Assembly (NCBI GenBank): GCA_913042175.1
Contig: CAJWIX010000011.1
Span: forward strand, 1-38,525
Source: an uncultured Flavobacteriales bacterium
GTDB taxonomy: Bacteria > Bacteroidota > Bacteroidia > Flavobacteriales_D > Parvicellaceae
Direction: 5' to 3'
DNA length: 38,525 nucleotides
The stretch's first letter is position 1, and the number at the start of each line of letters is the position of its first letter. Both the position numbers and the translations under genes were made by a program. Below, piece after piece: positions 1 to 29,549 of this stretch. The notes beneath the pieces are model-generated. The model searched no databases and was not told where the DNA came from. It worked only from the letters and a program-made list of their open reading frames with translations.

Positions 1-3000
1 TAATATCACTAATTGAGTCTGTTGTTAACCAGTCATAACTTATTCCTCCACCTGCAAGTATGCCAATAGTATCTCCAATACAAATTGCCGTATCATTAGA
101 AGTTGTAATGGTGGGTAACGCATCTATAGTTACTTGGACAGAATCTATATTGGAGCATCCGTTGGTATCAATTCCAGTGACAAAATAATAGGTTGCAGTT
201 GTAGGGAATACAAAAGGGTCACTTATGTTTGGATCAGTTATATTGGTAGCTGGAGTCCATGTGTATGTTTGTCCACCTGTTGCATTAAGTTGAATGGAAT
301 CATCCAAACAAATGGATAAATTATTACCTGCATCAATTGAGGGAAGTTGGACTAAGTTTATAGTTACAGTATCGCTATTACTACATCCATTTGCGTCAGT
401 CCCAGATAGAATATAATCTTGAGTGCTATTGACTTGGAAGTTTACACCATCAGTAATGCCATTGTTCCAAGTGTAGGTAATTGCACTTCCATTAGCTGTC
501 AATGAAGTAGAATCACCAATACATATATTTTGATCAAGTCCTGCATCTATTGCTGGTTTTGGATTTACAAATACAGTAACTTCTGTCGTGTCTTCACACG
601 TATTAACGTCACTAACTAATACATAACAAATAGTGGTAGTATCTGGCCAAACAGTAGGATTACTTATACTTGGGTCATCAATAGAGTCTGGAGATATCCA
701 ATTAAAAGTTATACCACCAAAAGCCTGAATTTGTACGCTATCCCCTTGGCATATAGTTTGATCTCCTCCATTAGATAAAGTTGGTAGTGGATTAACATCA
801 ATTAATAAGGTGTCTGTATTTGAACAACCATTGGCTAAAGTACCGGTTAAGATATACTCAGTAGCAGCTGTAGGTGTGGCCCATGGATTTGGAATGTTAG
901 GATCACTCAAAAAGGTATTTGGTGTCCACAAATATGTATCAGCACCTTGTCCTTGAAGTTGAACAGAATCATTAACGCAAAGGTTGATATATCCGTCAGT
1001 TTCACCTGTAAAAGTTGTTGGTATTGCCAGAGCATTTATAGTTACAGTATCATAATTAACGCAGCCCTCTACTGAGGTTGCAGTGAGAATGTAATCTAAC
1101 GTGTTTTGAACTTCAAAATTCAAACCATCTGTAATGCCATTATCCCAGTTGAAAGACGCTGCATTGCTAATCGCTGTTAGTGAAGTGCTGTCTCCTATGC
1201 ATACATCTTGATCTGAACCAGCATCTGCAGTAGGTAGATCATTAACAATTATTTGAAATGTGTCTTTGATAAAGCAACCAAAACTATTGGTACCTGTAAA
1301 AATATACTGAGTAGTTACGCTAGGATTAAATACTGGGTTTTCAATGGTGTTGTCATCAATAAAATTATTTGGTTCCCACAGATAAGTGTCAGCTGAAACA
1401 GGTGCGGTAATGGAAAGAGTATCATTGTTGCAAATGGTTTGATCTACTATATTGTTGAATGTAGAAGTGCTGTTATATCTTATTTTTTGTTCGTTATTTG
1501 ATCCACCTGTAGAAGCAGTAAACCCCCAATAGGTTGCTGATGCACCTCCAAATACATTATTGATAATGTCATAATTTAAGTTAATTACTTGAACACCATC
1601 GAATTCAACTGAAAAAATTTGATTTACAGGATCCCAATCAAAAATACAATTGTGCCATAGACCATCTTCCACATTTCCAGCAGTGCCAATAGATTGTGGA
1701 GGAGATAAGTTATTAACGGAAGAGTGGTCTAGTACTCCATCTTTTTGTACGGCAATATGGTCATTAGAAATATCATTGTAGGGCGCATTTTGCCAAGTAT
1801 CAAATTCAACAAAAAATGATGGTGATATATTTTCATATCCAATTCCACCTCCTTGTTGAAGTACTTGGTTGCTAAGTTGTTGTAATCCGAATGCAATACC
1901 ATCTGCTCCTGTTGCATCTTGATTGCCAAAATTAAGATCAACATCAAAATGAAAAGGTTGGTTTAGATTAACCAATGTGCTATTCCAAACAGCACCAGCA
2001 TCCCAATTCACGGCATCAGTAAGCAAATACTCATTATTTCCAAGATTCGTTGCACTACCATTAAGTATAAAGTTTGCATTAGCACCAGGCAAAGGAGATA
2101 CAAATACAGTTACACTATCTGTATTGGTACAATTGGCAGGGTTTGTACTAGTTTGAACAAAATATTGGGTTGTAAGAGTAGGGAAAGCGTCTGTTGTTGC
2201 ACTATTAGGTTGACCAAGGGATGCATTGGGAGTCCAAGTGTAGGTAGAACCGTTTCCGGCAGCAGTTAATTGAACAGTATCTCCCAAGCAAATAGTTTGA
2301 TTAAGACCAGCATCTATTTGTGCACTATCAATATTTACAGTGATACTATCAATGCCAAAACATCCTCCACCAATATCTACGATTAGATAGTATTTAGTGG
2401 TATCATTGGCTGTTACATAAGTTTGCAGCGAATTTGGTGTTGATACGGTAGGATCAGGGAAAACACTTGGGTTTGATGTCCATGTCGGAATAAACCCTGG
2501 TGTAGCAGTGGTGGTTCCTGATAATAAAACAGAATCCCCGTAACATATTGTAGTATCGTTTCCAACCGAAACGGATGGTGCAGGAGTAATGGTAGCATTA
2601 AATGAAATAGGATTAGATGGACAACCATATTGGTTCACGGCACTTAGAAATACTGTTCCTGTGCCAGCATTAGTCCAAAGCACTTGGACACTGTCCCCCC
2701 AGTCTTGAATAACAACACCGCCAAAAACACTCCAGTCGTAATTTGGTATATTAGGGTTGTTATCTGTTGTGTATACACCTGTTGAGTTTTGGCAAAAAAC
2801 ATTGCCACCATAAATGTTAGCAGGTGGATTGGGTTCAGTAACGGTGATTTCGTAAACTACATTTGTAGTTTTGGGTGGACAACCTCTATCTTCCACAGTT
2901 ACAGTAAAAATATATGGAAGAGCTTGAGCTTGGCCGCAATCTGTATTCCAACAAAAAGTAGCATTTATAGAATCTGCAGAGTTGGGGTCACTGAATATAG

Positions 3001-4270
3001 AATCAGTTATCGTAGCAGGCGGGTTTATGAATGTAGAATCAAATATTTGTCCAAAAGAGGTTAAAATAAGAGAGTCTGATGGAGAATCTGGGTCAGTAAA
3101 TCCAAAATCAAAGCATAATGTGTCTCCTTCTTCTACTGAAAAATTAGTTGCAGTTACACCAGCTTGAGGATTTAAATTAGCTGGGCTGTTAGGTGGGCAA
3201 TTAATTACATTTAATTGAACTTCTCTTGTGGATATTCCGATTAAAACACCATTTCTGTATTCCTTAATAATTAATGCGACAACATACTTTCCAGTGTTGG
3301 GCGCATAGTATTTTGTTAAACCATTGGATGCAGATAGTGTGTAATCTCCACCAGGTCCAAATGGCACTGCTTCACTGTAATTTGTTGCATAGGTTACAGT
3401 TTCTATAGGCCACGGGTAGTTATTGGGATACCAGCTTAACCCTCCAGGCGCAGGGCCACCACCACCAACTTGATTGGTGCCTCCAAAAGCATCAGCCCAG
3501 TTACCATCAAATGGTGCAGCACGTTCAAAAATTAGTTCATCTCCATCAGGGTCAATGGCAGAGTTTAAAAACGTTGTGGTGTCTTGAGCACAAATAAATG
3601 GAACGGGTGGGTCAGTAAAAATAGGGGTAGAATTTTCATAACCAAAAGGTGGTATGTAGGCATAGAAAGCCATCCCAGCTCCGCCAGGAGTTTGGATGTT
3701 GGTTATTCCATTAGCTCCTCCATTTCGACAACACCTTTCGTGAACAATGTGGTATCCTCCAATAGCAGGGGCTCCTGTAAGTGGGTTTATAGCTTCAAGT
3801 GTTATAGTATTGGAATATTGAACAGTATAAATGCAAGCCGAAATTCCAACAGAGCAGTTTGGAGGGTTATCTGGAGTAAAGGTTTCATAACTATTGGGCC
3901 AGGCAGATGTAAAGTAAAGCTTGTAATCAGTTCCACCACTAGAGCCGTCAGAATATTTAGGATAGCTACCTGAAGCTGTTGGAAAAGGGTTTGTTGGGTC
4001 ATTGTGGGCATACACAGCTATGTCCATTCCACTTGATCCTGGTATAGACGTAGGATCGTTAGGGTTAGGTATCCAATTGGAATTTGAGCCACAATCAAAG
4101 TAGTAATTTAAAGTAATTTTATACTCAAATTTATCAATGGTGCCATTCCCATCACTATCTATTCCTTGTATGAATTCATACGCCAGGTTTCCACCAACCA
4201 AATGGGTAGCTCTTAATCCACCTGAGACTAGCAAGAAAAATACTAAGATTAATGATAGTTTTTTGGTCAT
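1..4270 (-). CDS. Giant surface adhesin with L-type-lectin-like domain and Ig-like repeats (C-terminus off window)
   Basis: The reading frame stays open from the ATG at 4270 to the left edge, about 1423 codons, with no stop. A signal peptide (MTKKLSLILVFFLLVSGGLRA) is followed by THLVGGNLAYE, the start of an N-terminal domain with ERCCRN near residue 178 and DPDGDEL near 240. A second domain (EEGDTLCFDFGFTD) follows to about residue 430. Three Cys-containing Ig-like modules lead to a domain at about residues 732-935 that reads like an L-type (legume-type) lectin: ADGIAFGLQ, FFVEFDTWQN, NDHIAV, TYWGFTASTGG. At least seven more Ig-like modules of 70-80 residues follow. The first two domains match the 1370-aa protein at 25437, so a type B T9SS sorting domain is expected outside the window. 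It lies 10 bases downstream of the 841-aa secreted protein and is probably co-transcribed with it. Carbohydrate binding and cell-surface location are inferences; the ligand is unknown. Confidence 0.88.
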   Translation of the reverse strand, partial: MTKKLSLILVFFLLVSGGLRATHLVGGNLAYEFIQGIDSDGNGTIDKFEYKITLNYYFDCGSNSNWIPNPNDPTSIPGSSGMDIAVYAHNDPTNPFPTASGSYPKYSDGSSGGTDYKLYFTSAWPNSYETFTPDNPPNCSVGISACIYTVQYSNTITLEAINPLTGAPAIGGYHIVHERCCRNGGANGITNIQTPGGAGMAFYAYIPPFGYENSTPIFTDPPVPFICAQDTTTFLNSAIDPDGDELIFERAAPFDGNWADAFGGTNQVGGGGPAPGGLSWYPNNYPWPIETVTYATNYSEAVPFGPGGDYTLSASNGLTKYYAPNTGKYVVALIIKEYRNGVLIGISTREVQLNVINCPPNSPANLNPQAGVTATNFSVEEGDTLCFDFGFTDPDSPSDSLILTSFGQIFDSTFINPPATITDSIFSDPNSADSINATFCWNTDCGQAQALPYIFTVTVEDRGCPPKTTNVVYEITVTEPNPPANIYGGNVFCQNSTGVYTTDNNPNIPNYDWSVFGGVVIQDWGDSVQVLWTNAGTGTVFLSAVNQYGCPSNPISFNATITPAPSVSVGNDTTICYGDSVLLSGTTTATPGFIPTWTSNPSVFPDPTVSTPNSLQTYVTANDTTKYYLIVDIGGGCFGIDSITVNIDSAQIDAGLNQTICLGDTVQLTAAGNGSTYTWTPNASLGQPNSATTDAFPTLTTQYFVQTSTNPANCTNTDSVTVFVSPLPGANANFILNGSATNLGNNEYLLTDAVNWDAGAVWNSTLVNLNQPFHFDVDLNFGNQDATGADGIAFGLQQLSNQVLQQGGGIGYENISPSFFVEFDTWQNAPYNDISNDHIAVQKDGVLDHSSVNNLSPPQSIGTAGNVEDGLWHNCIFDWDPVNQIFSVEFDGVQVINLNYDIINNVFGGASATYWGFTASTGGSNNEQKIRYNSTSTFNNIVDQTICNNDTLSITAPVSADTYLWEPNNFIDDNTIENPVFNPSVTTQYIFTGTNSFGCFIKDTFQIIVNDLPTADAGSDQDVCIGDSTSLTAISNAASFNWDNGITDGLNFEVQNTLDYILTATSVEGCVNYDTVTINALAIPTTFTGETDGYINLCVNDSVQLQGQGADTYLWTPNTFLSDPNIPNPWATPTAATEYILTGTLANGCSNTDTLLIDVNPLPTLSNGGDQTICQGDSVQIQAFGGITFNWISPDSIDDPSISNPTVWPDTTTICYVLVSDVNTCEDTTEVTVFVNPKPAIDAGLDQNICIGDSTSLTANGSAITYTWNNGITDGVNFQVNSTQDYILSGTDANGCSNSDTVTINLVQLPSIDAGNNLSICLDDSIQLNATGGQTYTWTPATNITDPNISDPFVFPTTATYYFVTGIDTNGCSNIDSVQVTIDALPTITTSNDTAICIGDTIGILAGGGISYDWLTTDSISDI
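2..1475 (-). repeat. Tandem Ig-like repeat array inside the giant adhesin
   Basis: At least seven modules of about 70-80 codons follow the lectin domain, each with a core of D..IC.GDS..L.A, a central W, and a closing NGC.N.DTV.I. Two modules, near 1030-1235 and 345-560, are especially alike (DAGSDQDVCIGDSTSLTA with WDNGITDGLNF, and DAGLDQNICIGDSTSLTA with WNNGITDGVNF). The others carry a W.PN....DP.I.NP.. variant. The last visible module is cut by the window edge. These are protein-level repeats; the DNA copies have diverged. Confidence 0.8.
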
Positions 4271-4280
4271 TTTTAACTTA

Positions 4281-6806
4281 TCAATGTAGGATAACTCTTT
4301 TTAGAATTGTGTTTTTTGATGAATTCAACTTGACCTTTACGAAATAAACCCCTTTTTGTTCCATTGAAATATCAATATTTTTTGTCTTGGTATTTAGTTG
4401 ATTTTCTTGTACTATCATTTGACCAATCATATTTGTAATTTCTATGTTTTCAATATAGTCTGTAGATTTTAATATAAAATTACCATTATTTGGATTAGGA
4501 ATCACTTTAATAGACGATTTCAATTCTTCTTGGATATCGACAGTGCAGGCATTAAAAGGGCCATACCAATCACTGCTTGTGCCAGCACAATTCGATTGAA
4601 TATAAAAGTCATAACAAGTAAGTTCATTTAAGCCCGTTACATAAAAGTTATTGGTGAAAATGTTGTTTAGTAAGATTCCAGTTCCACTAAAAACGCCAAA
4701 TCCTTGTGGACCATACATAATATTCCAAGAACTTTCAGAACTTCCTGGATCCCAAGTTAATTGAATGTTAGTTTGATTTATTTGACCAATATTTACATTT
4801 ACAGGCTCGGGACATGTAGCAATCATAATAGCATAATCTTCGGTCTGACCTCTGTTAAGGTCAGAGCATGAAGTAAAACTACTCCCAACTTCATCACTAG
4901 ATATTCTTAACCTAAGCGCTTTGTTTACTACGGTGTTTGATGGTATTTGGACAATTGAAACCGGGTCATATGTGTTGATTTTATCCATGACTTTTTCATT
5001 TGATTCAAATATCCCATTGTCATTGTAATCTATCCAAGCCTTGGTGTCTTGTGGATTGTTGGAACCAGTGTAAACTCTTAGGGCATAGTTGGTATTAGGC
5101 TCTACAAATGCCTGATGTTCACAACTAAAATCCATATATCCTTCAATTGCATCTGAAGATGGATGGTTTATGTTTGAAAATTGAACTCTTGTTATTCCGT
5201 AGTCACAACAATAACTCAATGTAGAAGGATAGCAAGATGGTGTTCTTACTTTAAATGTGGTGTCTACTTCAATGAGCTGTGGAATAGTAATGTTATCAGA
5301 TCCATATGCATTGGTTGCAATTAATGTGATATCGTAGGTCCCATTGTCTGTGTAAGTGTGAGTTGGATTTTCTGCAATAGAAAAATTACCATCACCAAAA
5401 TCCCAGTACCAAGAATAGGGGACATTAGTGGACAAATCTGTAAATTGAACTGTTCCATCACATGTAAATGTTTTGTTGACAGCAAAATCAGCATTTGGTG
5501 GAGAGGTGTTAACCTTTAGAAATACGGTGTAGTCTTCAGCCTGTCCATAAGTCGGGTCCAAACATGGATCTAAAGAACCAGATAAGAAAAAATCTGCCAT
5601 AATTCTGAGTCTTAAAGGGGTGTTGGTGATAGATGTGCCTGGAATCTGAATAGAAACATTTGTTGTGTCTGCTTGTATGGTCTCTGCAATAAGTTCAGTG
5701 GTGTTGTCAAAAACACCATCGTTATTGTAATCAATCCAAGCTGCAAAATTTTGAAAATTGGAGTTACTATGGATTGCCGTAAGTTGATAGAATTGACCTA
5801 TATAGAAGGTGTCAATATCACAGGTAAAATCTGCATAACCTTCAGTAGCATCCAAGGAGTTTCTTGAAATATTTCCAAAATTAAAAGAAGTAATTCCCCA
5901 ACCAGCAAAACCGTTCTGAGAGTTAGGTGTACAGGAAGCAGGTGAAGGGTTTTGAGACCCAATATTTACAGTTACAATGTTGCTGAGAATAGTGGTGTCA
6001 GATCCAAATGCATTGGAAGCTACAAGTGTTACTGTGTAAGTTCCAGAGGAAGTGTAAGTGTGTGTAGGGTTTTGGTCTGTTGAGGTATTTCCATCACCAA
6101 AATCCCAAGACCAGGATGTAGGTGAATTAGAAGTTAAATCGGTGAAACTTACAGTGCCGCTACAGGAACTAGTGGTATTTAATGAAAAATTAGAAATAGG
6201 TGGACTACTTGGGTCAACCCATTCAAATCTCATATTTGGACGTTGAGTTTCAACACCATTAATCCAGTTGTTTTGACAGGGAGAACTATTTTGATTTCTT
6301 CTGTAAATGAGTGTGTTGTAACCATAATTGGTCATGTTCATAATGGCATTTTGAGAATTACCTGAACTGTAAAAACAAGTTTGAACAACAATATTTGAAA
6401 TGCCGTCCCAGTAAAAAGGAGTGTGGAAGTTGTGTTGATTCCATCCAGTTATTTCATTGACTGTGGTAGGGCCAAAACATGTTTGTAAGTTGTTGTTGCT
6501 CCATGCACTCAAAGAAACTTGGGTAGTTGATTTTAGTTCTATTTCAAAATTTGATATAGTTCCACCACTGGGAACAACTACATCAAAGCCAAGACCAGTA
6601 ATATTACCTGCTGACATACCAGCAGCTTGTAATTCTGATGCTTTAATTAACATTTGGTGTTTTACACCTCTGAACCAATTTCCGTAAATAGATGGATATG
6701 CAGTTGTAGAACTTTGCAGGTTGCCGGTTCCAACTATGTGAAATGAGCCTTGTGAAAATATAATACTTTGTATGAACAAAGCAATTAATAGGATTATCTT
6801 TTTCAT
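4281..6806 (-). CDS. Secreted multidomain protein: module X, two PKD-GEVED cassettes, FN3, type A T9SS sorting domain
   Basis: 841 aa, ATG start, signal peptide ending near FSQG. In order: an N-terminal domain at about residues 22-200 (YGNWFRGVKHQMLIKASEL...YWDGISNIVVQTC), PKD 1 at about 203-283 (WSWDFGDGN, NPTHTYT), GEVED 1 at about 295-430 (AWIDYNNDGVF, GQAEDY), PKD 2 at about 435-520 (WYWDFGDGN), GEVED 2 at about 525-665 (AWIDYNDNGIF, GQTEDY), an FN3-like domain at about 667-755, and a type A sorting domain from about 768 (KVIPNPNNGNF...GVYFVKVKL). The type A domain marks it as T9SS cargo, exported across the outer membrane and then anchored or released. GEVED and PKD domains are common in surface adhesins and enzymes of Bacteroidota; no catalytic domain is visible, so an adhesive or scaffold role is the best guess. 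It is first in a two-gene unit with the giant adhesin. Confidence 0.92.
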   Translation of the reverse strand: MKKIILLIALFIQSIIFSQGSFHIVGTGNLQSSTTAYPSIYGNWFRGVKHQMLIKASELQAAGMSAGNITGLGFDVVVPSGGTISNFEIELKSTTQVSLSAWSNNNLQTCFGPTTVNEITGWNQHNFHTPFYWDGISNIVVQTCFYSSGNSQNAIMNMTNYGYNTLIYRRNQNSSPCQNNWINGVETQRPNMRFEWVDPSSPPISNFSLNTTSSCSGTVSFTDLTSNSPTSWSWDFGDGNTSTDQNPTHTYTSSGTYTVTLVASNAFGSDTTILSNIVTVNIGSQNPSPASCTPNSQNGFAGWGITSFNFGNISRNSLDATEGYADFTCDIDTFYIGQFYQLTAIHSNSNFQNFAAWIDYNNDGVFDNTTELIAETIQADTTNVSIQIPGTSITNTPLRLRIMADFFLSGSLDPCLDPTYGQAEDYTVFLKVNTSPPNADFAVNKTFTCDGTVQFTDLSTNVPYSWYWDFGDGNFSIAENPTHTYTDNGTYDITLIATNAYGSDNITIPQLIEVDTTFKVRTPSCYPSTLSYCCDYGITRVQFSNINHPSSDAIEGYMDFSCEHQAFVEPNTNYALRVYTGSNNPQDTKAWIDYNDNGIFESNEKVMDKINTYDPVSIVQIPSNTVVNKALRLRISSDEVGSSFTSCSDLNRGQTEDYAIMIATCPEPVNVNIGQINQTNIQLTWDPGSSESSWNIMYGPQGFGVFSGTGILLNNIFTNNFYVTGLNELTCYDFYIQSNCAGTSSDWYGPFNACTVDIQEELKSSIKVIPNPNNGNFILKSTDYIENIEITNMIGQMIVQENQLNTKTKNIDISMEQKGVYFVKVKLNSSKNTILKRVILH
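4820..6205 (-). repeat. Tandem PKD-GEVED cassette duplication
   Basis: Two consecutive cassettes of about 230 codons each encode one PKD and one GEVED domain in the 841-aa protein. Matching landmarks are DFGDGN...NPTHTYT...GTY in the PKD parts and AWIDYN(N/D)(D/N)G(V/I)F with a closing GQ(A/T)EDY in the GEVED parts, in the same order and spacing. This points to an internal tandem duplication that has since diverged. Confidence 0.8.
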
Positions 6807-6944
6807 TTTAATCTACGTTGTCGAACATGTTAAAATCAGTAATTAATTTTAAACTTTCACTTTGTAACATATGACGTATTAATTTGCAAAAGGTTGGTTA
6901 AATTAATAGAAATGTATTACATATTGACAGTAAAACAATTTATT

Positions 6945-6980
6945 TTTTGTTTAAAGTTAATTAAAAAATATTAAACAAAA
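6945..6980. repeat. AT-rich 10-bp inverted repeat in a 199-bp intergenic stretch
   Basis: TTTTGTTTAA at 6945-6954 and its perfect complement TTAAACAAAA at 6971-6980 flank a 16-base AT-rich spacer, 26 bases past the glpD stop. Neither strand has a GC-rich stem followed by a clean T-run, so a normal intrinsic terminator is not convincing. It could be a weak terminator or a protein site. The rest of 6807-7005 is AT-rich with no gene and no clear TAnnTTTG box for the 841-aa gene. Confidence 0.3.
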
Positions 6981-7005
6981 CTTAACATAAGATAAATTAA
7001 CAGAT

Positions 7006-8589: not shown

Positions 8590-8592
8590 TAA

Positions 8593-10065: not shown

Positions 10066-10071
10066 AAGAAA

Positions 10072-11409: not shown

Positions 11410-11411
11410 AA

Positions 11412-14203: not shown

Positions 14204-14222
14204 ATCAAATGGATTAGTTTGT

Positions 14223-15743
<1,521 letters not shown>

Positions 15744-15771
15744 CTAACAGCCATACTTTTAAGAATAGTTT

Positions 15772-15781
15772 AACATATGTT
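15772..15781. promoter_or_regulatory. Palindrome AACATATGTT between divergent guaB and porP-like gene
   Basis: A perfect 10-base palindrome in the 131-base divergent region. Related sequences with CATATGTT sit in two other intergenic regions, 22119-22127 upstream of purL and 6865-6875 on the minus strand upstream of the 841-aa gene. A shared binding site is possible but CATATG also occurs in coding sequence at about the frequency expected by chance. Confidence 0.25.
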
Positions 15782-15793
15782 GATTATAAAGTT

Positions 15794-15801
15794 TATTTTT
15801 G
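15794..15801 (+). promoter_or_regulatory. Possible -7 box upstream of the porP-like gene
   Basis: TATTTTTG matches TAnnTTTG and lies 28 bases before the TTG start at 15830. The TTG at 15780-15782 is too close to act as a normal -33 element, so this is a moderate candidate only. Confidence 0.4.
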
Positions 15802-15829
15802 TAATCTGTTTTTATACTTTCGCAACGAT

Positions 15830-19152: not shown

Positions 19153-20801
19153 TTTTCATAAACAATCTCTCCATCAACTATCGTATAACTTACTTTAGTA
19201 CTAAGTACTTTTTCTTCATCGCAATTCAATAAATCTGTGTTAAGAATAGTAATGTCAGCACATTTATCGATTTCTAAGGTTCCCTTTTCATTTTCTTCAA
19301 AATTTGCAATAGCTGCCCATATTGTCATGCCTTTTAATGCTTCAATTCTACTTAAAGCCTCATTAACTTGAAACCCACCAAGAGGTTTGTCTTGGAAATT
19401 TTTTCTAAAAACTGCAGCATAAAAAGTATGAATTGGATTAATTTTTTCAACTGGAAAGTCAGTTCCCAACGCGATTAATCCGTTTTGATTCATTAAATCA
19501 AAATATCTGTAGCAATTATTTAGCCTTTCCTTGCCCAATCTTAAAATAGCCCAACTAAAATCTGAAGTTGCATGAGTGGGTTGTACGGATGGAATAATAT
19601 TATTTTCTTTAATTACATGTATGTCTTCTGGGCTAATACATTGTACATGTTCAATTCTCCACCTTAAGTCGTTTTGACCACCTAAAGCGTTTGCATAAGC
19701 ATGGCTAATTATTCTATTGGCAGAATCTCCAATTGCATGTGTGCATGCCTGAAAACCATACTCTTTAAGTGTGTTTAGTTTTGATTTATAATTGGCAATA
19801 TTTTGTAGTAATTGTCCATGGGTATTTTTATTGTCTTGGTAAGGCTTAATTAAACATGCTCCCCTTGATCCTAAAGAACCATCTGCAAAAAATTTAAAGG
19901 AAGAAATAGTCATTTTATTGCTTTTATAAGGAGCATTTTTTTCAAATACATAATGCTGAAAATTCTCTTCATTATCTGATAACATAATGTAGGTTTTTAT
20001 TTCCAGCTCGTCTGTTTTGTGAAGTTTATCTATGAGTTCAATGTCTTCTTTAATTAATCCAGCAATATCCACTGTAGTAAGGCCCTTAGCGAAGCAATTT
20101 TTTTGGGCTTCAATAAGCGCTGATTTTTTTAATTCTTCATTGGGTTCTGGAATTTGATTTAAAATTAAATCCATGGCATTATCAACAAAAATTCCTGTTG
20201 GCTTGCCCTCAATTATTTCAATATGCCCCCCAAATACAGTGGTGTCCATATTGATATTAGATGTAGCTATGGCTTTTGCATTGGCCATCAAAGCATGTCC
20301 GTCAACTCTATTGATCACAACATTATGATCTGGGAATGCTTCGTTTAATGCTTTATTTGTAGGCCATTTTTTATTGGGCCATTTATTTTGGTCCCACCCA
20401 TTGCCAATTAGCCAATCATTATCTGATTTTTCTGCAAAATCTTTCATTAATTCAATGACTTCTTCAAATGATTGGCATGAAGAAAGTTCAACTTGTTGTT
20501 TTTGCAGTCCAAAACTTAATAAATGACAATGTGCATCTATAAAACCAGGATAGGCGTATTTCCCTTTTAAATCAATCGTTTTAGCTGAAGTATATTTATT
20601 TAAAATTTGATTATTCTTCCCAGAAGCCAATATCTTTCCTTCTTTAATTGCAATGGCTTCATCTACATCAAAATAAGCGTTAAGCGTATAAATTGTTCCG
20701 TTATGGATGATTAAATCAACATTTTCTTTAGAAATGCAAGAAGTAGCTAATAGGCCAACAAGTATTAAAAACTTTAAATTATTCTTTTTGTGTTTTTTCA
20801 T
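19149..20801 (-). CDS. Amidohydrolase-family lipoprotein (YtcJ-like)
   Basis: 550 aa. The N-terminus MKKHKKNNLKFLILVGLLATSC has a lipobox-like end with Cys22, so it is probably an envelope lipoprotein. The amidohydrolase 3 fold is clear: LIIHNGTIYTLN, the metal-binding YPGFIDAHCHLLSFG (HxH near residues 89-93), VDGHALMANAKAI, FFADGSLGSRGA, CTHAIGDSANR, RIEHVQ, and GTDFPVE with the metal Asp. YtcJ-type proteins hydrolyse amide or imine bonds of varied small molecules; the substrate cannot be told. The start overlaps the end of the membrane-protein gene by 23 bases, suggesting coupling. The 3' end shares TTAA (19149-19152) with the convergent PD40/OmpA gene. Confidence 0.9.
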   Translation of the reverse strand: MKKHKKNNLKFLILVGLLATSCISKENVDLIIHNGTIYTLNAYFDVDEAIAIKEGKILASGKNNQILNKYTSAKTIDLKGKYAYPGFIDAHCHLLSFGLQKQQVELSSCQSFEEVIELMKDFAEKSDNDWLIGNGWDQNKWPNKKWPTNKALNEAFPDHNVVINRVDGHALMANAKAIATSNINMDTTVFGGHIEIIEGKPTGIFVDNAMDLILNQIPEPNEELKKSALIEAQKNCFAKGLTTVDIAGLIKEDIELIDKLHKTDELEIKTYIMLSDNEENFQHYVFEKNAPYKSNKMTISSFKFFADGSLGSRGACLIKPYQDNKNTHGQLLQNIANYKSKLNTLKEYGFQACTHAIGDSANRIISHAYANALGGQNDLRWRIEHVQCISPEDIHVIKENNIIPSVQPTHATSDFSWAILRLGKERLNNCYRYFDLMNQNGLIALGTDFPVEKINPIHTFYAAVFRKNFQDKPLGGFQVNEALSRIEALKGMTIWAAIANFEENEKGTLEIDKCADITILNTDLLNCDEEKVLSTKVSYTIVDGEIVYEN

Positions 20802-22074
20802 TATGAGTGAATAAAATGTAAATGATAAAGATTAAGAATAAAGTTGCAGGTATTTTATATCTTACCATGGCACCAATTACAGGAGTTGTTAATCCAATTA
20901 GGGTATATAGTAAAATGATAAATGATATAGCTGAAAATATAAGAACGACTGCATTTTTATGTAATTGAATTTGAGATTTTGCTTTGATATATAATGCATA
21001 AGTCAATGCTCCATATATTAATATGTTTTCAATAAATGGCAAGAAATGAATAAGCTTATTGATGTCTAAAGGAAAGGGTCTAAAAAGCCCATTGATAAAA
21101 CCTAAAGGAAGTGATGTGATAAAATTAAAAAAATGATTATTAATTGTAGGTAATTCAAAATAACTTCCAGCCCTATTGTAAGTGGCTAAATTGGTAAAGT
21201 CTTGTTGTTTAAGCGATATAATATTTATGATGTCATAGTTACTTTCAAAAAAATGTAAAAAAGAAATAATTACTAAAATTATTGGTAAGGCAATCAGTGA
21301 GATAATTGAAGCCTTTTTTTTGAAGAAAAGACAAAGGCTTAAAAGGACTACTGAAGGAACTATACAACAAAATATATACAGCTTAGTTTTAAGGAGAATT
21401 ATTAGACCTATTAGTATGAATAAAATATGTTTTTTTAAATCTTTTTTTGTGTGGTAGTAGTTTCCAATACCATAAAATAATAATCCCAATCCAAAAAATA
21501 TAATGGGTTCTTTTAAAATACCTGAAGTCCATAAGAATATGGAAGGGAACAACATTATAGACCAAAACACATAGAAAAAATGTTTCATTGGGTGAATTCT
21601 ATCTATAGCTTTTAGTATTAGAATATTTCCAATAAAACCAATTAACGTAAACAATAATACATTTACTGCATATACATTGTTGTTTATAATATTAAAAATG
21701 GAACTTAGTTTAATTACGACTCTAGATTCATTAGTGATGACAGATTCATAAGAATTGTCCCAATGGTTCATATTTATAAAATAATCGTAGAAAAACTCTT
21801 TTTCGTAATACCCAATAATTATCTTAAAATAATCTAAGGTATTACTAAAAAAAACAGCTGATAATGCTCTACTATCATCATAAAACTTAAAGATATCTGC
21901 CGTTTGTCTTTCTCTGTAATATTCAGTGTATAAATAATAAAGGCATAGGGCACCAATAAGTTTGGCTAAAAAAGCCATATTAACATGAATTTTGGAGATT
22001 TTATTAAATCTAAAAAGCTTCCATTTGTTTATTAAAATAAAGCATAATAAAAGGTATGTTAAAGTGATAATCAA
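20779..22074 (-). CDS. Polytopic inner-membrane protein, unrecognised family
   Basis: 431 aa with a TTG start (MIITLTYLLLCFILINKWK); the start is chosen because it completes the first hydrophobic segment. About ten transmembrane segments are visible (for example VLLFTLIGFIGNILILKAI, IIFFGLGLLFYGIGNYY, ISLIALPIILVIISFL, AALVL-like stretch near residue 370, and a final IPATLFLIFIIYILF). A long non-membrane loop follows the second segment (residues 45-115), and a second loop lies near 275-320. The arrangement recalls polysaccharide polymerases or glycosyltransferase-C-like proteins, but no diagnostic motif is visible. It overlaps the amidohydrolase gene by 23 bases. Confidence 0.75.
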   Translation of the reverse strand: MIITLTYLLLCFILINKWKLFRFNKISKIHVNMAFLAKLIGALCLYYLYTEYYRERQTADIFKFYDDSRALSAVFFSNTLDYFKIIIGYYEKEFFYDYFINMNHWDNSYESVITNESRVVIKLSSIFNIINNNVYAVNVLLFTLIGFIGNILILKAIDRIHPMKHFFYVFWSIMLFPSIFLWTSGILKEPIIFFGLGLLFYGIGNYYHTKKDLKKHILFILIGLIILLKTKLYIFCCIVPSVVLLSLCLFFKKKASIISLIALPIILVIISFLHFFESNYDIINIISLKQQDFTNLATYNRAGSYFELPTINNHFFNFITSLPLGFINGLFRPFPLDINKLIHFLPFIENILIYGALTYALYIKAKSQIQLHKNAVVLIFSAISFIILLYTLIGLTTPVIGAMVRYKIPATLFLIFIIYILFTHNEKTQKE

Positions 22075-22160
22075 TGTTTCTTAAAAAGTAATCATAGTAA
22101 ATTAATTGAAAACCTATGACATATGTTAGTAAATGATGTAAAATTTAAGTGCTACTGATA

Positions 22161-22168
22161 TAACTTTG
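22161..22168 (+). promoter_or_regulatory. Bacteroidota -7 box upstream of purL
   Basis: TAACTTTG matches TAnnTTTG exactly and ends 36 bases before the purL ATG at 22205. The in-frame TTG at 22166 falls within this box, so the longer reading frame is not a credible start. No clear -33 TTTG is present. Confidence 0.6.
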
Positions 22169-22204
22169 GTTATTTTTGCATCAATTTTTTTAAAATTTTA
22201 TCTA

Positions 22205-24421
22205 ATGAGTAAAACTGCTACTGTAGAACAAGCCAAGGAATTGGGACTTCTTGAGGAAGAATATAATCAGATATGTGATATACTAGAAAGAAAACCAAAT
22301 TTCACGGAGCTTAGCATTTATTCTGTAATGTGGTCTGAACATTGTTCTTACAAGAACTCGATTAAATGGTTGAAGACTTTACCCAAAGATGGTCCACATA
22401 TGTTAGTTAAAGCTGGAGAAGAGAATGCAGGTTTAGTAGATATTGGAGATGGATTAGCATGTGCTTTTAAAATTGAATCACATAATCATCCAAGCGCTTT
22501 AGAACCTTATCAAGGTGCTGCTACAGGTGTTGGAGGAATAAATAGAGATATTTTTACTATGGGAGCTCGTCCTATCGCTCAAATGAATTCATTGCGATTT
22601 GGAGAATATACCAATGATCGAACAAAGTGGTTGTTAAAAGGAGTAGTTAAAGGTATTGGAGATTATGGTAATTCATTTGGTGTGCCAGTTTTATCTGGTG
22701 AGGTATTTTTTGATAAAAGTTACGATCAAAATCCATTGGTAAATGCATTTTCAGCTGGTATCATGAATACAGATCATTTAATATCTGCTAAATCTTCCGG
22801 TCCGGGTAATCCAGTTTTCATAGTAGGTTCATCTACTGGAAAAGATGGTATTCATGGCGCTGCTTTTGCCTCAAAGGACATAACCGAAGATTCTATGGAT
22901 GATCTTCCAGCAGTTCAAGTTGGAGATCCTTTTCAAGAAAAACTATTGTTAGAAGCAAGTCTTGAATTAGCTAAGACGGATATAATTGTGGGTATGCAAG
23001 ATATGGGTGCAGCTGGAATTACATGTTCAACTTCTGAAATGAGCGCAGCGGGAGATGTTGGGATGGATATAGATTTAGATAAAGTTCCTACTAGACAGCA
23101 GGGAATGAAAGATTGGGAAATATTATTGTCAGAATCTCAAGAAAGAATGTTGGTAGTAGTTCAAAAAGGCAAAGAAGAGCAGGTAAAAGAAATTTTTGAT
23201 AAGTGGGACTTAAATTGTGAGCAAATTGGTGTTGTAACAGATAAAGATGAATTGAATTTTTATCAAAATGGTGAATTAGTTGCCCAAGTGCCTCCTTCTT
23301 CCCTTGTGCTTGGTGGAGGAGCCCCAATTTATGATAGAGCATATAGCGAACCAGCATATTTTAAAACTTACAAACAATTCAAAATTGATTCAGTTGTTGA
23401 GCCTGAAAATTTAAAAGATGTGGCTAAGTTTCTTTTTCAACAACCCAATATAGCTTCTAAAAGGTGGGTTTATGAACAATATGACAGTATGGTTGGTACA
23501 AATAATATATCAACAAATCATCCATCAGACGCTGGTGTTGCATTAGTTAAAGGAACTTCCAAAGGAATTGCGATGTCTGTTGATTGTAACTCTAGGTATG
23601 TAAATGCAGATCCTGAAACTGGAACTGCAATTGCAGTATCAGAAGCTGCAAGAAATATAGTAGTAAGTGGAGGAGCTCCATCCGCAGTTACAAACTGTTT
23701 AAATTTTGGAAATCCATACCACCCTGAATCTTATTGGCAATTTGTAGGAGCCATCAAAGGAATGTCAAAGGCATGTGAGCAATTTTCAACACCTGTAACT
23801 GGTGGTAATGTTAGTTTTTATAATCAATCTGTTATTGATGGAAAAGAAGTACCTGTTTTTCCAACTCCTACCATTGGAATGATTGGAATTTTAGATGATG
23901 TAAGAAATATTATGAGCTTAGATTTTAAATCGGCTGGGGATGAAATATTTTTAATTGGAAAATTGGTTAATGACATTTCGTCTTCAGAGTATTTGGTTAA
24001 ATATCATGGTGTTGAAGCATCTCCTGCACCATATTTCAACTTAGAGGAAGAGCATCAATTGCATAAATGTATTGCTGAAATGATTGCTGAAAGGACTGTA
24101 AATGCTGCTCATGATTGTGCTGATGGTGGTTTGTTTGTCACTCTTGTTGAAATGGGTATGAATGGGAACTATGGATGCTCTATATCAACCTCAAGTGAAA
24201 TTAGAAAGGACGCTTTTTTGTTTGGCGAATCTCAAGGAAGGGTAGTTGTTTCTCTAAAAAAGGATAATGTAGATTCTTTAAAATCAATTTGTCAAAACCA
24301 CCATGTTCCTTTTTATCATTTGGGTCAAGTTAGAGATAATGATGAAATGGTTATTGATAATGAACAATTTGATAACATTGAGGATTATAAAAACCACTCA
24401 GAAAGCGTTATAAATCCTTAA
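22205..24421 (+). CDS. purL: Phosphoribosylformylglycinamidine synthase, large subunit type
   Basis: 738 aa from the ATG at 22205 (MSKTATVEQAKELGL). Catalyses the ATP- and ammonia-dependent conversion of FGAR to FGAM in purine synthesis. Landmarks: VMWSEHCSYKNSIKWLKTLP, ESHNHPSALEPYQGAATGVGG, GARPIAQMNSLRFG, GMQDMGAAGITCSTSEM, and a second AIRS-like half with TNCLNFGNPYHPE, GGNVSFYNQ and AHDCADGGL. The size is that of small-type PurL, which needs separate PurS and PurQ subunits; neither is in the window. A frame extension to 22166 is rejected because it begins inside the promoter. The Band 7 gene follows after 14 bases. Confidence 0.97.
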   Translation: MSKTATVEQAKELGLLEEEYNQICDILERKPNFTELSIYSVMWSEHCSYKNSIKWLKTLPKDGPHMLVKAGEENAGLVDIGDGLACAFKIESHNHPSALEPYQGAATGVGGINRDIFTMGARPIAQMNSLRFGEYTNDRTKWLLKGVVKGIGDYGNSFGVPVLSGEVFFDKSYDQNPLVNAFSAGIMNTDHLISAKSSGPGNPVFIVGSSTGKDGIHGAAFASKDITEDSMDDLPAVQVGDPFQEKLLLEASLELAKTDIIVGMQDMGAAGITCSTSEMSAAGDVGMDIDLDKVPTRQQGMKDWEILLSESQERMLVVVQKGKEEQVKEIFDKWDLNCEQIGVVTDKDELNFYQNGELVAQVPPSSLVLGGGAPIYDRAYSEPAYFKTYKQFKIDSVVEPENLKDVAKFLFQQPNIASKRWVYEQYDSMVGTNNISTNHPSDAGVALVKGTSKGIAMSVDCNSRYVNADPETGTAIAVSEAARNIVVSGGAPSAVTNCLNFGNPYHPESYWQFVGAIKGMSKACEQFSTPVTGGNVSFYNQSVIDGKEVPVFPTPTIGMIGILDDVRNIMSLDFKSAGDEIFLIGKLVNDISSSEYLVKYHGVEASPAPYFNLEEEHQLHKCIAEMIAERTVNAAHDCADGGLFVTLVEMGMNGNYGCSISTSSEIRKDAFLFGESQGRVVVSLKKDNVDSLKSICQNHHVPFYHLGQVRDNDEMVIDNEQFDNIEDYKNHSESVINP

Positions 24422-24435
24422 TATTAAGTATCTTA

Positions 24436-25371
24436 ATGGAAAATTATAACATGATGTATACAATGAACATTTTTAACATAATTATTTATGTTATTGCCTT
24501 TTATTTCCTAATAAGATCTATTATGATTATCCCGGAAAGACAGTCTTGGGTAATTCAAAGATTGGGTAAATTTAATAGAATTGCTCAGCCGGGCTTTAAA
24601 TTGAGAATACCTATAATTGAGTCTGTCGCGTCTAAGGAAAATTTAAGAATTCAGCAATTAGACGTTGATGTAGAAACTAAAACAAATGATGATGTATTTG
24701 TCATTCTTAAAATATCAGTACAATACCGAATTATTGGCAATAAAGTTTATGAAGCATTTTATGAATTAGATGACCCACACGGTCAAATTGCTTCTTACAT
24801 ATTTGATGAGGTTCGTGCTGAAGTGCCTAAGTTACCTTTGGATGATGTTTTTGCTAGAAAAGATGATATAGCTATTGCAGTAAGGGATAATATTTCTGCA
24901 CAAATGGAACAGTATGGCTATAAAATTGTAAAAACATTAATTACAGATATTAATCCAGATGAGCTTGTAAAAGCATCAATGAATAAAATTAACGCAGCAA
25001 CAAGAGAAAAAGAAGCGGCTATTCAAGAAGCTGAAGCGGAAAAAATTAGAATTGTCAAAAGAGCAGAAGCAGAAGCTGATTCAAAAAGATTATCTGGGGA
25101 GGGTATAGCACAGCAAAGGCTAGAAATTGTAAGAGGTTTTAAAGAATCTGTAGAAGATTTTCAAAAAGCACTTCAAGAAGTAGATCCACAAGAAATCATG
25201 CAATTTGTTTTGATGACCCAATATTTTGATACTTTAACTGCTATAGGTGCGAATGAAAATAACAACACTGTAATGGTTCCACATACACCAGGTGGTATGA
25301 AAGACTTTCAACAGCAAATCATAGAAGGTACTTTTATAGGTAAAGAACTATCAAATTCAAAAAAGTCATAG
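24436..25371 (+). CDS. SPFH/Band 7 (stomatin-like, QmcA-type) membrane protein
   Basis: 311 aa. One N-terminal membrane segment (about residues 10-26, IFNIIIYVIAFYFLIRSI), then the stomatin core starting IIPERQSWVIQRLGKFNRIAQPGFKLRIP, through QQLDVDVETKTNDDVFV and VRAEVPKLPLDDVFARKDD, and a coiled-coil of EAAIQEAEAEKIRIVKRAEAEA type near residues 190-235. Such proteins oligomerise in the inner membrane and scaffold proteases and lipid domains. No NfeD partner, often beside stomatins, is adjacent. The gene follows purL by 14 bases and is probably read from its promoter. Additional Met codons at residues 6, 7 and 10 leave the exact start slightly uncertain. Confidence 0.93.
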   Translation: MENYNMMYTMNIFNIIIYVIAFYFLIRSIMIIPERQSWVIQRLGKFNRIAQPGFKLRIPIIESVASKENLRIQQLDVDVETKTNDDVFVILKISVQYRIIGNKVYEAFYELDDPHGQIASYIFDEVRAEVPKLPLDDVFARKDDIAIAVRDNISAQMEQYGYKIVKTLITDINPDELVKASMNKINAATREKEAAIQEAEAEKIRIVKRAEAEADSKRLSGEGIAQQRLEIVRGFKESVEDFQKALQEVDPQEIMQFVLMTQYFDTLTAIGANENNNTVMVPHTPGGMKDFQQQIIEGTFIGKELSNSKKS

Positions 25372-25436
25372 CACTTTGGCAACCTTAACTAATTTCCACG
25401 TTGTGTAATTAGTTTAAATCATTTAATTTTACCAAA

Positions 25437-28400
25437 ATGGGTAATTCTTTTAAAAGCTTCATTTTCACAATCGTCTTTTTGTTTTGTACGTTTTTAAGTG
25501 CTAAAGCTTCTCACGTTCCAGGTGGAAATATTTCTTATGAAAATGTTGGACCAAATACATTTGTCATTACACTAACTGTTTTTGAAGATTGTGGAACTGC
25601 TTTTTATTCCAATTTCCCTGAGTCAATTGATGTATACAATAATTGTGGAATTCCTTTCCCTGCAACTATTCAATTGCCTAATATTATTTTTCAACAAGAA
25701 GTTTCTCAGTTATGTGCAAGTTCATTACCTCTAAGTGAATGCAATGGAGGTTCTCTACCAGGTGTATATATGCATGTATGGCAAGACACGATTACACTAC
25801 CAGGAACTTGCAATAGTTGGACTTTTGCTTTTGAAGATTGTTGTAGAAATAGTTCTAATAACCTTACAGGAACAGGTAACGATTATTACTGGGAATCTGT
25901 ATTAAATAGTAATACAGCCCCTGATAACTCATCTCCTGTAATTACTTCTCAACCTATCCCATACTACTGTATTAATCAACCTGTGATATATAACTTTGGG
26001 GTTTACGAACCTGACGGAGATTCCCTTTATTATTCCTTAATAAATGCCATGACTGGACCAACTACAACTGCTCCCTATCAGGGTGGTTTTTCTGGTACTG
26101 TTCCAATTCCTGGTATCAATATTGACCCAAATACTGGTGAAATTACCTTTACTCCTAATGCTACTGGTAATTATGTTGTAGCAGTTTTAATTGAAGAATT
26201 TGATGCAGCTGGTAACTTAGTAGGAAGTATTATTCAAGATTTTCAATTTGAAATAATTAATGTAGCAGGTTGTACTAACATTAACCCAGCACCACCAACG
26301 GGCGGTATTACCAATTTTAACAGCACTGGAGTTTTAACTGGACCATTTGATATTCAGGTTTGTGAAGGGGATAGTGTTTGTTTTGATGTAACATTTACAG
26401 ATAATCCAGGAGATTCTATCTATATAGCTTCAAATATTGGGCAGTTATTCCCAGGAGCTGTAATGACTCAAAATTCTTATTTTACACCTGCAACAGCTAC
26501 ATTCTGTTTTACTATTGCCCCAGGAACAAATCCATTTTCAACAATTAGTATTGATGTTAATGATAATGCTTGTCCAATTGTTGGAATTACTTCTGCTGCA
26601 GTTGGAGTAACTGTGATAACAAGTACATACGCAGGCCAAAATGTTACCATGTGTCAAGGTGTAGGAACACAATTATTAGCTACTGGTGGATCCAATTTTA
26701 ACTGGACTGTTCTTTCTGGAGACCCCATAAGCATTGGAAATAATTTTTCTTGTAATAATTGCCCTAACCCTGTAGCAAATCCTGCATTTACAACCACATA
26801 TCAAGTCGTAAGTAATTTAGCTGGTGGTTGTACAAATATTGATACTGTTGAGGTTACAGTAGTACCAGATTTTAATTACTCCTTAACTCAAACAGGTTCT
26901 TCAACCTGTCTTAATTCAACCATAGATTTTAACGCTGTTCCAACACCTAGTGGAAGCTACACCTATGATTGGCAACCCTCAGCTAATCTAAATAATAACG
27001 CCATTAGCAACCCTACTTTTAGCTCGTCTATGCCTGGCTTGTTTGACTATGAAGTTACTATTACAAGTGCTTTGGGATGTGTTAAGGTAGATACGTTAAC
27101 TATTGATGTGGTACCATCTTATTCACCAGACATAACGCTTACAGCTAGTGATACCAATATTTTGTGTGGAGATTCTGTTTTTATGAACGTTGATTTAGGT
27201 GGAGGTATTCCAGCGGTTTGTGGTCCTAGTGGTTCTACAGCATGTTCTGCACCATCTTCAACGAATATTGTTGGAACAAACATGGGAACAAATTCCAATA
27301 CTGTTTTTCCTGCACCATTTGGCAACTGGTACAAAAACGCCAAACATCAATTTTTATTCAGAGCATCTGAACTTCAAGCTGCAGGTATTTCAGGTGGAAA
27401 AATAACTGAAATTGCTTGGGAAACTACTGCTCAAAATACAGCAACAAACAACTTCAACAGCTTTTCAATAAGTATGGGTTGCACGGGCCAATCAACATTA
27501 GCCAATTGGCAACAAGGATTAACTCAAGTTTTTTCACCACAAAACATCATTGTTAATTTGGGGTGGAATACTTTCCAATTAACCACAGCTTATGAGTGGG
27601 ATGGTATTTCGAATTTAGTTGTGGAAATTTGTTATGACAACTTAAGTTCAAACTATACAAGAAATTGGTCTACTCCATACCATGTAACTAACTATAATTC
27701 AGTGTTGTATTATCGAAGTGATGTCACTCCTGCATGTCCTTTTACTTCTACTTTTACTAATTCTACTAATCGACCTGTAACCCAGTTTAAAACATGTCCT
27801 ACTACACCTGACCCAGCTAATTTTACTTTTCAATGGACTCCGCCATCCTTTTTAAGTAGTGATACTGTTCAAAACCCTTTAGCATTACCTATGGTAACCA
27901 CACAGTATTCTGTAGTTGCTACTGATTTAAATGGCGGTTGTACTGATACAGCTAGTATTTTAATCACTGTAATTTGTGACACTTGTGATAAACCTATTCC
28001 GACAATTGATGGGCTTACTTGTTATGGGGGTAATGATGCCTCAGTTTCTGGAATACCTGGAGGAACCGATGGGCCACCTTGGATTTTTCAATTGCTTGAT
28101 GGTTTTGGTATAAATCTTTATGCTGTTGATAGTAATGTTACCACCAACTTCTTTTTTGATAGTTTATCGGCTGGTGATTATATCATAAGATCTTTAGATA
28201 CAACAGGTTGTTATGCTGATACGATGATCACTATACCTGATGGTATTCCTATTGTTTTAAATATGAGTAGTGATACCATAATATGTTTGGATGGGACGGC
28301 TACTATAAGTGCCTCAGCTTCTGGAGGTACTCAACCTTACTCTTATAATTGGGTTGGTTTATCAGGAAATGGGCCTCATCAAGTATCACCTACATATTCT

Positions 28401-29549
28401 CAGTATTATAAAGTCAATGTAATTGATTCTGCCAATTGCGTTTCAGATCAAGACTCAGTACTTGTTGCGCTTAATCCTCCAATTTTATTATCTGTTTATA
28501 ATGATACTACCATATGTCCATATGATTCGGCTTTTGCTTTAGCCAATGCAACTGGTGGCAATGGTGGTCCTTACATTTACAATTGGGTTGATGATAATGG
28601 GAATTCTATTTCTTCAATACCTTCAGGAACTGGTTCGACTATTTATCCTGTTCCGATTGATGCATACACCCATTATTATGTAACTGTTGAGGATAATTGT
28701 GAAACTCCTTCAAAAACTGATTCTATATTGGTTGATTGGCATGACCTTCCAACAGTTTTGTTTGATGCCAATAACTTTGATGGGTGCTTTCCTGTAGAAG
28801 TTCAATTTACAAATAATACTTTATCATCTAATGTCCAAACTTGTAACTGGAACTTAGGAAATGGATTGACTTCTACTAATACAGATACTGTTAGTACTAT
28901 TTATAATACACCAGGTCTTTTCGATGTCTCCCTTGAAGTTACATCACCAGAAGGTTGTGTAAATGATACTACATTTTTTAGCTTTATAGAAGCATTTGAC
29001 TATCCAGTTGCTGGTTTCCTTTCTGTTCCAAATCCAGTTTCTGTATTAACACCTTCAGTTCAATTTATGGATACTTCAGTAGGTGCTGTTTTATTTGAGT
29101 GGAACTTTATGGATAGTTCTATGAATATATTAGGAAGTAGTTTTGATCAAAATCCAACATTTAATTTTCCAGATCAAGAAGAATATGCCTACTTAGTTGA
29201 ACTAATCGTTGAAAACCAACATGGATGTACTGATACGGCATACAATTACCAAATAGTAGAAGGACAGTTTGCCTTATTCTTACCCAATACATTTACACCT
29301 GATGGAGATGGTTTAAATGATGAGTTTTATCCAGTTGGTGATAAAATTGATCCTAATAATTATGATTTCCAAGTTTACAATAGATGGGGAGAAATGATAT
29401 TCCAAACAAAAGACCCTTTAGTTCATTGGGATGGTAAATTCAAAGGTGATTATGTCCCCAGTGGAAATTATCTTTGGAAAATTAACCTGAAAGACATTCA
29501 GAGTGGAGAATATAAAGAGTTAAAAGGATTTGTTATTCTTTCTAATTAA
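25437..29549 (+). CDS. Large type IX-secreted adhesin with type B (gliding-motility) sorting domain
   Basis: 1370 aa, signal peptide to about residue 24, then SHVPGGNISYENVGP opening an N-terminal domain with DCG, EDCCRN and EPDGDSL, paralogous to the left-edge adhesin; a second shared domain (CEGDSVCFDVTFTD) reaches about residue 400. Ig-like modules follow, then module X at about 605-786 (FGNWYKNAKHQFLFRASEL, YEWDGISNLVVEIC), an SprB-like repeat at about 855-935 (GLTCYGGNDASVSGIPGG...LSAGDYIIRSLDTTGC), Ig-like and PKD-like modules, and a type B sorting domain from about 1278 (LPNTFTPDGDGLNDEF, YNRWGEMIFQT, SGNYLWKI). Type B cargo includes the gliding adhesin SprB. A weak promoter, TTG at 25401 with TTAATTTT at 25423 (19-base gap), lies just upstream. 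The 3' end shares TTAA with the convergent gene. Confidence 0.93.
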   Translation: MGNSFKSFIFTIVFLFCTFLSAKASHVPGGNISYENVGPNTFVITLTVFEDCGTAFYSNFPESIDVYNNCGIPFPATIQLPNIIFQQEVSQLCASSLPLSECNGGSLPGVYMHVWQDTITLPGTCNSWTFAFEDCCRNSSNNLTGTGNDYYWESVLNSNTAPDNSSPVITSQPIPYYCINQPVIYNFGVYEPDGDSLYYSLINAMTGPTTTAPYQGGFSGTVPIPGINIDPNTGEITFTPNATGNYVVAVLIEEFDAAGNLVGSIIQDFQFEIINVAGCTNINPAPPTGGITNFNSTGVLTGPFDIQVCEGDSVCFDVTFTDNPGDSIYIASNIGQLFPGAVMTQNSYFTPATATFCFTIAPGTNPFSTISIDVNDNACPIVGITSAAVGVTVITSTYAGQNVTMCQGVGTQLLATGGSNFNWTVLSGDPISIGNNFSCNNCPNPVANPAFTTTYQVVSNLAGGCTNIDTVEVTVVPDFNYSLTQTGSSTCLNSTIDFNAVPTPSGSYTYDWQPSANLNNNAISNPTFSSSMPGLFDYEVTITSALGCVKVDTLTIDVVPSYSPDITLTASDTNILCGDSVFMNVDLGGGIPAVCGPSGSTACSAPSSTNIVGTNMGTNSNTVFPAPFGNWYKNAKHQFLFRASELQAAGISGGKITEIAWETTAQNTATNNFNSFSISMGCTGQSTLANWQQGLTQVFSPQNIIVNLGWNTFQLTTAYEWDGISNLVVEICYDNLSSNYTRNWSTPYHVTNYNSVLYYRSDVTPACPFTSTFTNSTNRPVTQFKTCPTTPDPANFTFQWTPPSFLSSDTVQNPLALPMVTTQYSVVATDLNGGCTDTASILITVICDTCDKPIPTIDGLTCYGGNDASVSGIPGGTDGPPWIFQLLDGFGINLYAVDSNVTTNFFFDSLSAGDYIIRSLDTTGCYADTMITIPDGIPIVLNMSSDTIICLDGTATISASASGGTQPYSYNWVGLSGNGPHQVSPTYSQYYKVNVIDSANCVSDQDSVLVALNPPILLSVYNDTTICPYDSAFALANATGGNGGPYIYNWVDDNGNSISSIPSGTGSTIYPVPIDAYTHYYVTVEDNCETPSKTDSILVDWHDLPTVLFDANNFDGCFPVEVQFTNNTLSSNVQTCNWNLGNGLTSTNTDTVSTIYNTPGLFDVSLEVTSPEGCVNDTTFFSFIEAFDYPVAGFLSVPNPVSVLTPSVQFMDTSVGAVLFEWNFMDSSMNILGSSFDQNPTFNFPDQEEYAYLVELIVENQHGCTDTAYNYQIVEGQFALFLPNTFTPDGDGLNDEFYPVGDKIDPNNYDFQVYNRWGEMIFQTKDPLVHWDGKFKGDYVPSGNYLWKINLKDIQSGEYKELKGFVILSN

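Follow-up and report, generated by a model that had tools for sequence, protein, structure and literature searches.

Module X, a widespread unnamed domain of T9SS cargo proteins predicted to be an accessory beta-sandwich binding module

Two proteins encoded in a 38,525-nucleotide stretch of DNA from an uncultured Flavobacteriales bacterium (hereafter the window) share a domain, here called module X, that represents a real, widespread and unnamed family, best read from its predicted structure as a familiar kind of part, namely an accessory beta-sandwich binding module. Computation on sequences and models reveals a family that is closely associated with T9SS hosts, adopts a predicted all-beta fold, occurs both nested within other domains and circularly permuted, and includes an ancestrally linked gene pair. 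We infer ligand binding, with a glycan as the ligand. A non-catalytic module of T9SS cargo that probably binds glycans is the account we favour, with confidence slightly above even. A family of several hundred members, which is a globular part of many T9SS adhesins, has no model in the main domain libraries. With a name for it, many proteins annotated as "T9SS sorting domain-containing protein" would become testable binding proteins.

The window comprises the entire contig C11 of its source genome, an assembly of 2.36 Mb in 165 contigs that is 85% complete, and contains one copy of module X in each of two genes (Table 1). The original prediction had proposed a domain common to the 1370-aa adhesin P0003 and the 841-aa protein P0002. 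The motifs that it quoted are indeed present in the translations of 27249-27794 (forward strand) and of the open reading frame at 4281-6806 (reverse strand), and a single BLASTP comparison of the full proteins aligns residues 608-786 of P0003 with residues 21-196 of P0002 at E = 1e-25, with about 31% identity across a longer segment. The similarity is more than a short motif, as conserved blocks cover the full aligned length. The natural module is slightly longer than first delimited, spanning approximately residues 596-787 of P0003, since it is bracketed by the conserved cysteines C596, C603 and C787. Another two cysteines, C732 and C767, are invariant in 82 of 82 aligned modules; C682, C787 and C603 mostly occur together, and all three are missing from P0002, while C596 is a further cysteine directly upstream in the nested form. 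This pattern of co-occurrence suggests the disulphide pairings C732-C767 and C682-C787.

Table 1. Features of the window that bear on module X (positions in nucleotides)
Feature	Position	Strand	Remarks
Related adhesin	2..4270	-	Incomplete at contig end; N-terminal homology with P0003, E 3e-16
L-type lectin domain in Ig array of related adhesin	1472..2080	-	PF18483, E 1.3e-42
P0002	4281..6806	-	841-aa protein: module X, PKD, GEVED, PKD, GEVED, fn3, sorting domain
Type A T9SS C-terminal sorting domain, P0002 769-839	4290..4502	-	2.2e-10
Module X copy 2 (P0002 ~22-197)	6216..6743	-	N-terminal; retains just the invariant Cys pair
P0003	25437..29549	+	1370-aa adhesin: N-terminal domain, Ig/PKD array with nested module X
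Ig-like host domain, first part (strands A-B, P0003 561-590)	27117..27206	+	
Module X copy 1 (P0003 596-787)	27222..27797	+	Includes bracketing Cys596, Cys603, Cys787; core 601-787
Ig-like host domain, second part (strands C-G, P0003 795-848)	27819..27980	+	
Type B T9SS C-terminal sorting domain, P0003 1282-1368	29280..29540	+	CHU_C 2.2e-15; TIGR04131 2.5e-13

The two copies are old relatives. Synonymous differences between them, from which an ancient duplication had been proposed, are real but modest, affecting three of eight codons in ASELQAAG and three of six in WDGISN. The module tree places P0002-type sequences apart from P0003 and two other copies of the same genome (support 99/96), and both types are found in other genomes; with long branches and unsettled bootstrap values, finer placement in the tree is unsure. 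Within the source genome, the copy-1 query (P0001) recovers 27249-27794 itself, contig C89 at 63% identity and contig C82 at 56% identity, as well as positions 6225-6746 of the window at 36% identity (E 1.9e-26). Beyond these four clear copies, a profile search finds a fifth, divergent one in contig C40 (5018-5377; L115), which belongs to a PNGase F-like protein. Here a LamG domain may lie inside a loop of module X, a tentative reading in which the joined tail adds just 1.6 bits. Partial matches of similar extent are also seen in frames of about 1160-1370 aa in many genomes.

Outside the source genome, the scan of species-representative genomes confirmed at least 508 relatives of module X, and 79 of the 80 loci kept from them carry a Bacteroidota label, chiefly Flavobacteriales and Crocinitomicaceae-type MAGs. 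A profile search across a sample of the phylum found the module in 46 genomes out of 396. The sole exception to the Bacteroidota label, L076 (G396:C312), is an adhesin of T9SS type that has two modules and comes from a MAG labelled Chloroflexi; SprA is missing from its genome and module X from 150 further genomes of that phylum, which makes contamination the probable explanation. The proposal of an unnamed domain that recurs in other secreted Bacteroidota proteins holds. No Pfam or NCBIfam model lies over module X above its curated cut-off in P0002, P0003 or 82 close members, and among 31 divergent members no Pfam family matches and PHROGs yields nothing above chance level; a sequence search of the PDB likewise returns no family that covers the module. 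The best Pfam matches, including GhoS and DUF1989, are isolated occurrences in single members and were taken as chance, as were the motif-level PDB sequence matches to maltoporin and to IcmE/DotG, the latter arising from short "aaeLxaaG" repeats.

Mobile elements were searched as well. By tblastn, no module X was found in 50,697 phage records or in plasmids, and a profile-guided scan of viral contigs found none. A motif scan of viral contigs returned only L146 (IMGVR_UViG_3300017917_001283), a contig filed as viral that codes for an adhesin of bacterial type containing module X (E 1e-32); the contig is probably host DNA that entered the viral collection. Among predicted viral structures, a domain of the 463-aa protein A0A6J5NL19 in BFVD ("uncultured Caudovirales phage") matches module X with a TM of 0.81 at 22% identity. 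As sequence searches of phage collections turned up no relatives, phage carriage of the module is not claimed.

As far as sampled, module X is very nearly confined to T9SS cargo, a point on which the original prediction had sought a survey. The N-termini of P0002 and P0003 (MKKIILLIALFIQSIIFSQG and MGNSFKSFIFTIVFLFCTFLSAKA, respectively) are hydrophobic and look by eye like signal peptides, and with their type A and type B sorting domains the two proteins qualify, by sequence, as predicted T9SS cargo. Among the complete host C-termini, 64 of 91 match CHU_C and 33 of 91 Por_Secre_tail, some possibly both. The T9SS translocon component SprA is present in all 46 module-positive genomes, and the source genome is SprA-positive as well. 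SprA occurs in 305 of the 396 genomes sampled, for a hypergeometric probability of 2.6e-6 for the overlap with kinship ignored, and the SprA-negative genomes listed belong mostly to one family. The non-adhesin hosts include M28 and M43 peptidases, LTD-CotH, beta-helix and reelin-subrepeat proteins, and a PNGase F-like protein with an N-glycanase_C domain; several proteins contain two or three copies of module X. In CAZy, a CBM is by definition attached to a carbohydrate-active enzyme; the PNGase F-like protein is a host of this sort, but most hosts are adhesins or peptidases. Like the SprB/TIGR04131 type B adhesins, P0003 combines a putative signal peptide (judged by eye), a repetitive Ig/PKD array and a type B C-terminal domain, whereas module X is its own feature. 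Its predicted role as a surface adhesin is consistent with work on Flavobacterium johnsoniae (PMC12618676), and it looks like an "orphan" type B substrate, since the PorP/SprF-like gene of the window is not adjacent to it.

The two hosts accommodate the module in distinct ways. It had been described as N-terminal in P0002 and as an insert between Ig-like repeats in P0003; the first placement is right, but in P0003 the insert interrupts one Ig-like domain, separating its strand B from its strand C. Because the joined flanks (561-590 and 795-848) gave no match in Pfam, a profile was built from the window's own Ig repeats, those of the neighbouring adhesin, against which the joined flanks score 48.5 bits as one whole Ig repeat, compared with 6.0 and 38.6 bits separately. 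An AF2 model of residues 548-851, computed with 71 homologues (pLDDT 90.8), has Ig strands at construct positions 20-23, 27-29 and 34-39 before the module and at 249-254, 275-283 and 289-299 after it, and all 71 homologues of the alignment have the module inserted in the same setting. A more radical rearrangement is found in two LTD-CotH proteins from genomes of the window's order (L134, G041:C10; L135, G045:C8), in which the second half of module X comes first. The halves score 73-90 bits each in their real order and merge into one full-length match of 171-180 bits when swapped; removing the insert from L134 lengthens the LTD match, which spans profile positions 16-74 at 46.7 bits before removal and positions 16-106 at 59.2 bits afterwards. 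In these proteins module X is naturally circularly permuted and inserted in a lamin-tail domain. Nesting and permutation together imply that the termini of the module are close to one another, a geometry that makes insertion into loops of unrelated domains, and even circular permutation, possible. The nested and permuted forms constitute a clean natural example of domain insertion.

The isolated module, modelled by AF2 from an alignment of 82 modules (pLDDT 94.8, pTM 0.91), is predicted to be an all-beta sandwich whose one short helix falls on the SELQAAG motif. Comparison with carbohydrate-binding folds, proposed at the outset, points to a weak similarity to carbohydrate-binding-like domains. 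Foldseek against the PDB gives resemblance at the level of fold class only (best E 5e-4, TMq about 0.5). At the top stand the Bxb1 tail tip, the lectin-like domain of Cwp84, CBM-like domains of carbohydrate esterases (AcXE), a PVA esterase and the central fibre of Douge, followed at lower rank by plant lectins, CBM32 and CBM35; a longer model adds the CBM domain of FjoAcXE (7tok). The same fold class includes domains that bind partners other than carbohydrates, such as PHR domains and the Ephrin receptor ligand-binding domain.

Three of these neighbours merit closer comparison. The N-terminal CBM-like domain of FjoAcXE-type acetyl xylan esterases (7toh/7tog/7toj/7tok), which its authors put in no existing CBM family, is also an accessory domain found on secreted Bacteroidota proteins and built as an all-beta sandwich (for 7toh, foldseek E 2e-3 and TMq 0.48; for 7tok, TM 0.65 over the target). 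Identity is about 9-10% with no sequence-profile match, and that domain helps to build the active site of its esterase, whereas module X is not tied to any one enzyme. The lectin-like domain of Cwp84, an S-layer protease of Clostridioides difficile (4ci7; E 7e-4, TMq 0.47, about 10% identity), is likewise a beta-sandwich accessory domain, of about 165 residues, in a surface protein; it has a Ca2+ site, and its function was left open by its authors. The carbohydrate-binding domains of the Douge/Bxb1 central tail fibres (8zdp, 9d93) are beta-sandwiches like module X, and glycan binding has been proven for Douge, but they superpose with a TMq of about 0.5 and an rmsd of 5-9 A and belong to phage proteins unrelated in sequence.

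Conservation within the family offers a complementary view. Among divergent members, G123 alone is invariant; W121, N126, E45 and a handful of other positions exceed 90%, and these members show no conserved catalytic set. Positions 628, 631 and 632 of P0003 are aromatic in 85-94% of members, which could reflect core packing.

A binding role is also suggested by the adhesin at the left end of the window, a relative of P0003 that carries an L-type lectin of family PF18483. Like module X, this lectin is a globular domain in an Ig-like array behind a homologous N-terminus; unlike module X, it belongs to another sequence family and sits between Ig repeats rather than within one. Through a comparison of the two adhesins, the question of what marine Bacteroidota stick to can be approached directly. 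Emerging from the B-C loop of one Ig-like domain, module X would project from the stalk of P0003 as a knob, with the C-terminal type B domain presumed to keep the protein at the cell surface; in P0002, a type A cargo, it would be the first mature domain. A binding module is the best reading of a secreted domain that lacks a conserved catalytic set, forms an inserted head, and occupies the kind of array in which a relative has a lectin. A glycan would be the most likely ligand by analogy with fold neighbours that bind glycans, namely the Douge fibre domains, which bind mycobacterial glycans (PMC13033339), and the CBM-like domain of PbeAcXE, which provides residues that hold the glucuronoxylan ligand (PMC9105624); the similarity on which this analogy draws is weak. 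We count the fold, the lectin swap, the fusion partners, the lack of a conserved catalytic set, the aromatic loop and surface display toward a non-catalytic glycan binder, and against it the TM of about 0.5 or less and E of 5e-4 or worse to solved carbohydrate binders, the other kinds of binder in the fold class, the caution of the Cwp84 authors and the chance that the aromatic positions pack the core.

Three other functions were weighed. Given that its fold class includes protein binders (the Ephrin receptor ligand-binding domain and PHR), module X might be a protein-protein contact domain that docks cargo to another protein of the cell surface or to the identical adhesin of an adjacent cell, and the P0003-type insertion keeps its position and architecture in many genomes, as would be the case with a fixed partner. 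We regard this as unlikely, because hosts as different as peptidases, CotH, PNGase F-like and beta-helix proteins speak against one dedicated partner, and the related adhesin has a lectin in its Ig array. Rather improbable, in our estimate, is a ligand-free spacer or cap, a stable knob, clamped by disulphides, that would make the stalk stiffer or shield it. The top conserved positions do look structural (G, W, I, a buried-type WDGxSN and Cys), and an invariant polar site is lacking; on the other hand, a spacer needs neither the N-terminal position found in P0002 and other hosts nor the two or three repeats found in some proteins, and the array occupied by module X holds a lectin in a relative. 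That module X serves T9SS targeting, for instance as a recognition or folding element during export, would fit its tight link to T9SS hosts and SprA-positive genomes but is highly improbable, as hosts already carry type A or type B sorting domains, the module occurs with both types, and just 46 of the 305 T9SS-positive genomes sampled have it.

A more speculative reading is that module X founds a new binding family specific to T9SS cargo, a head that Bacteroidota move between adhesin stalks and secreted enzymes, the permuted lamin-tail form included, whose ligand would define the grip of these marine bacteria on particles or on each other. We consider this reading possible but somewhat short of even likelihood.

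The genomic arrangement links the two hosts. Related loci L013 and L015 share the order P0002 homologue-glpD-glpK-P0003 homologue-hemE-OmpA-MFS-L2HGDH-hypothetical-yidC, with neighbours named by eye from proteins and cross-genome matches, which indicates that, for part of the group at least, linkage of P0002 and P0003 is the ancestral state. The "distant loci" of the original prediction are thus apart in the window, but descend from neighbours. The window has the same flanking genes, but about 15 kb separates glpK from P0003 (within 6807-25436), with ppiC genes, guaB, porP/sprF, an OmpA-type gene, purL, an SPFH gene and others; its purL-P0003 arrangement is also found in L007 and L009, and the SPFH gene in L007.

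At the left end, positions 1-130 of the window and of contig C89 carry the same Ig-repeat DNA, with the first 55 bases identical and 116 of 130 overall. As both contigs start with it, the assembly evidently broke at a repeat common to two adhesin genes, which accounts for the truncation of the left-end adhesin. Also seen by eye in the window are a PorP/SprF-like gene and, next after it, a PorE-like gene of OmpA type (15830-19152) and three PpiC/SurA-type peptidyl-prolyl isomerase-like genes in a row (10072-14203).
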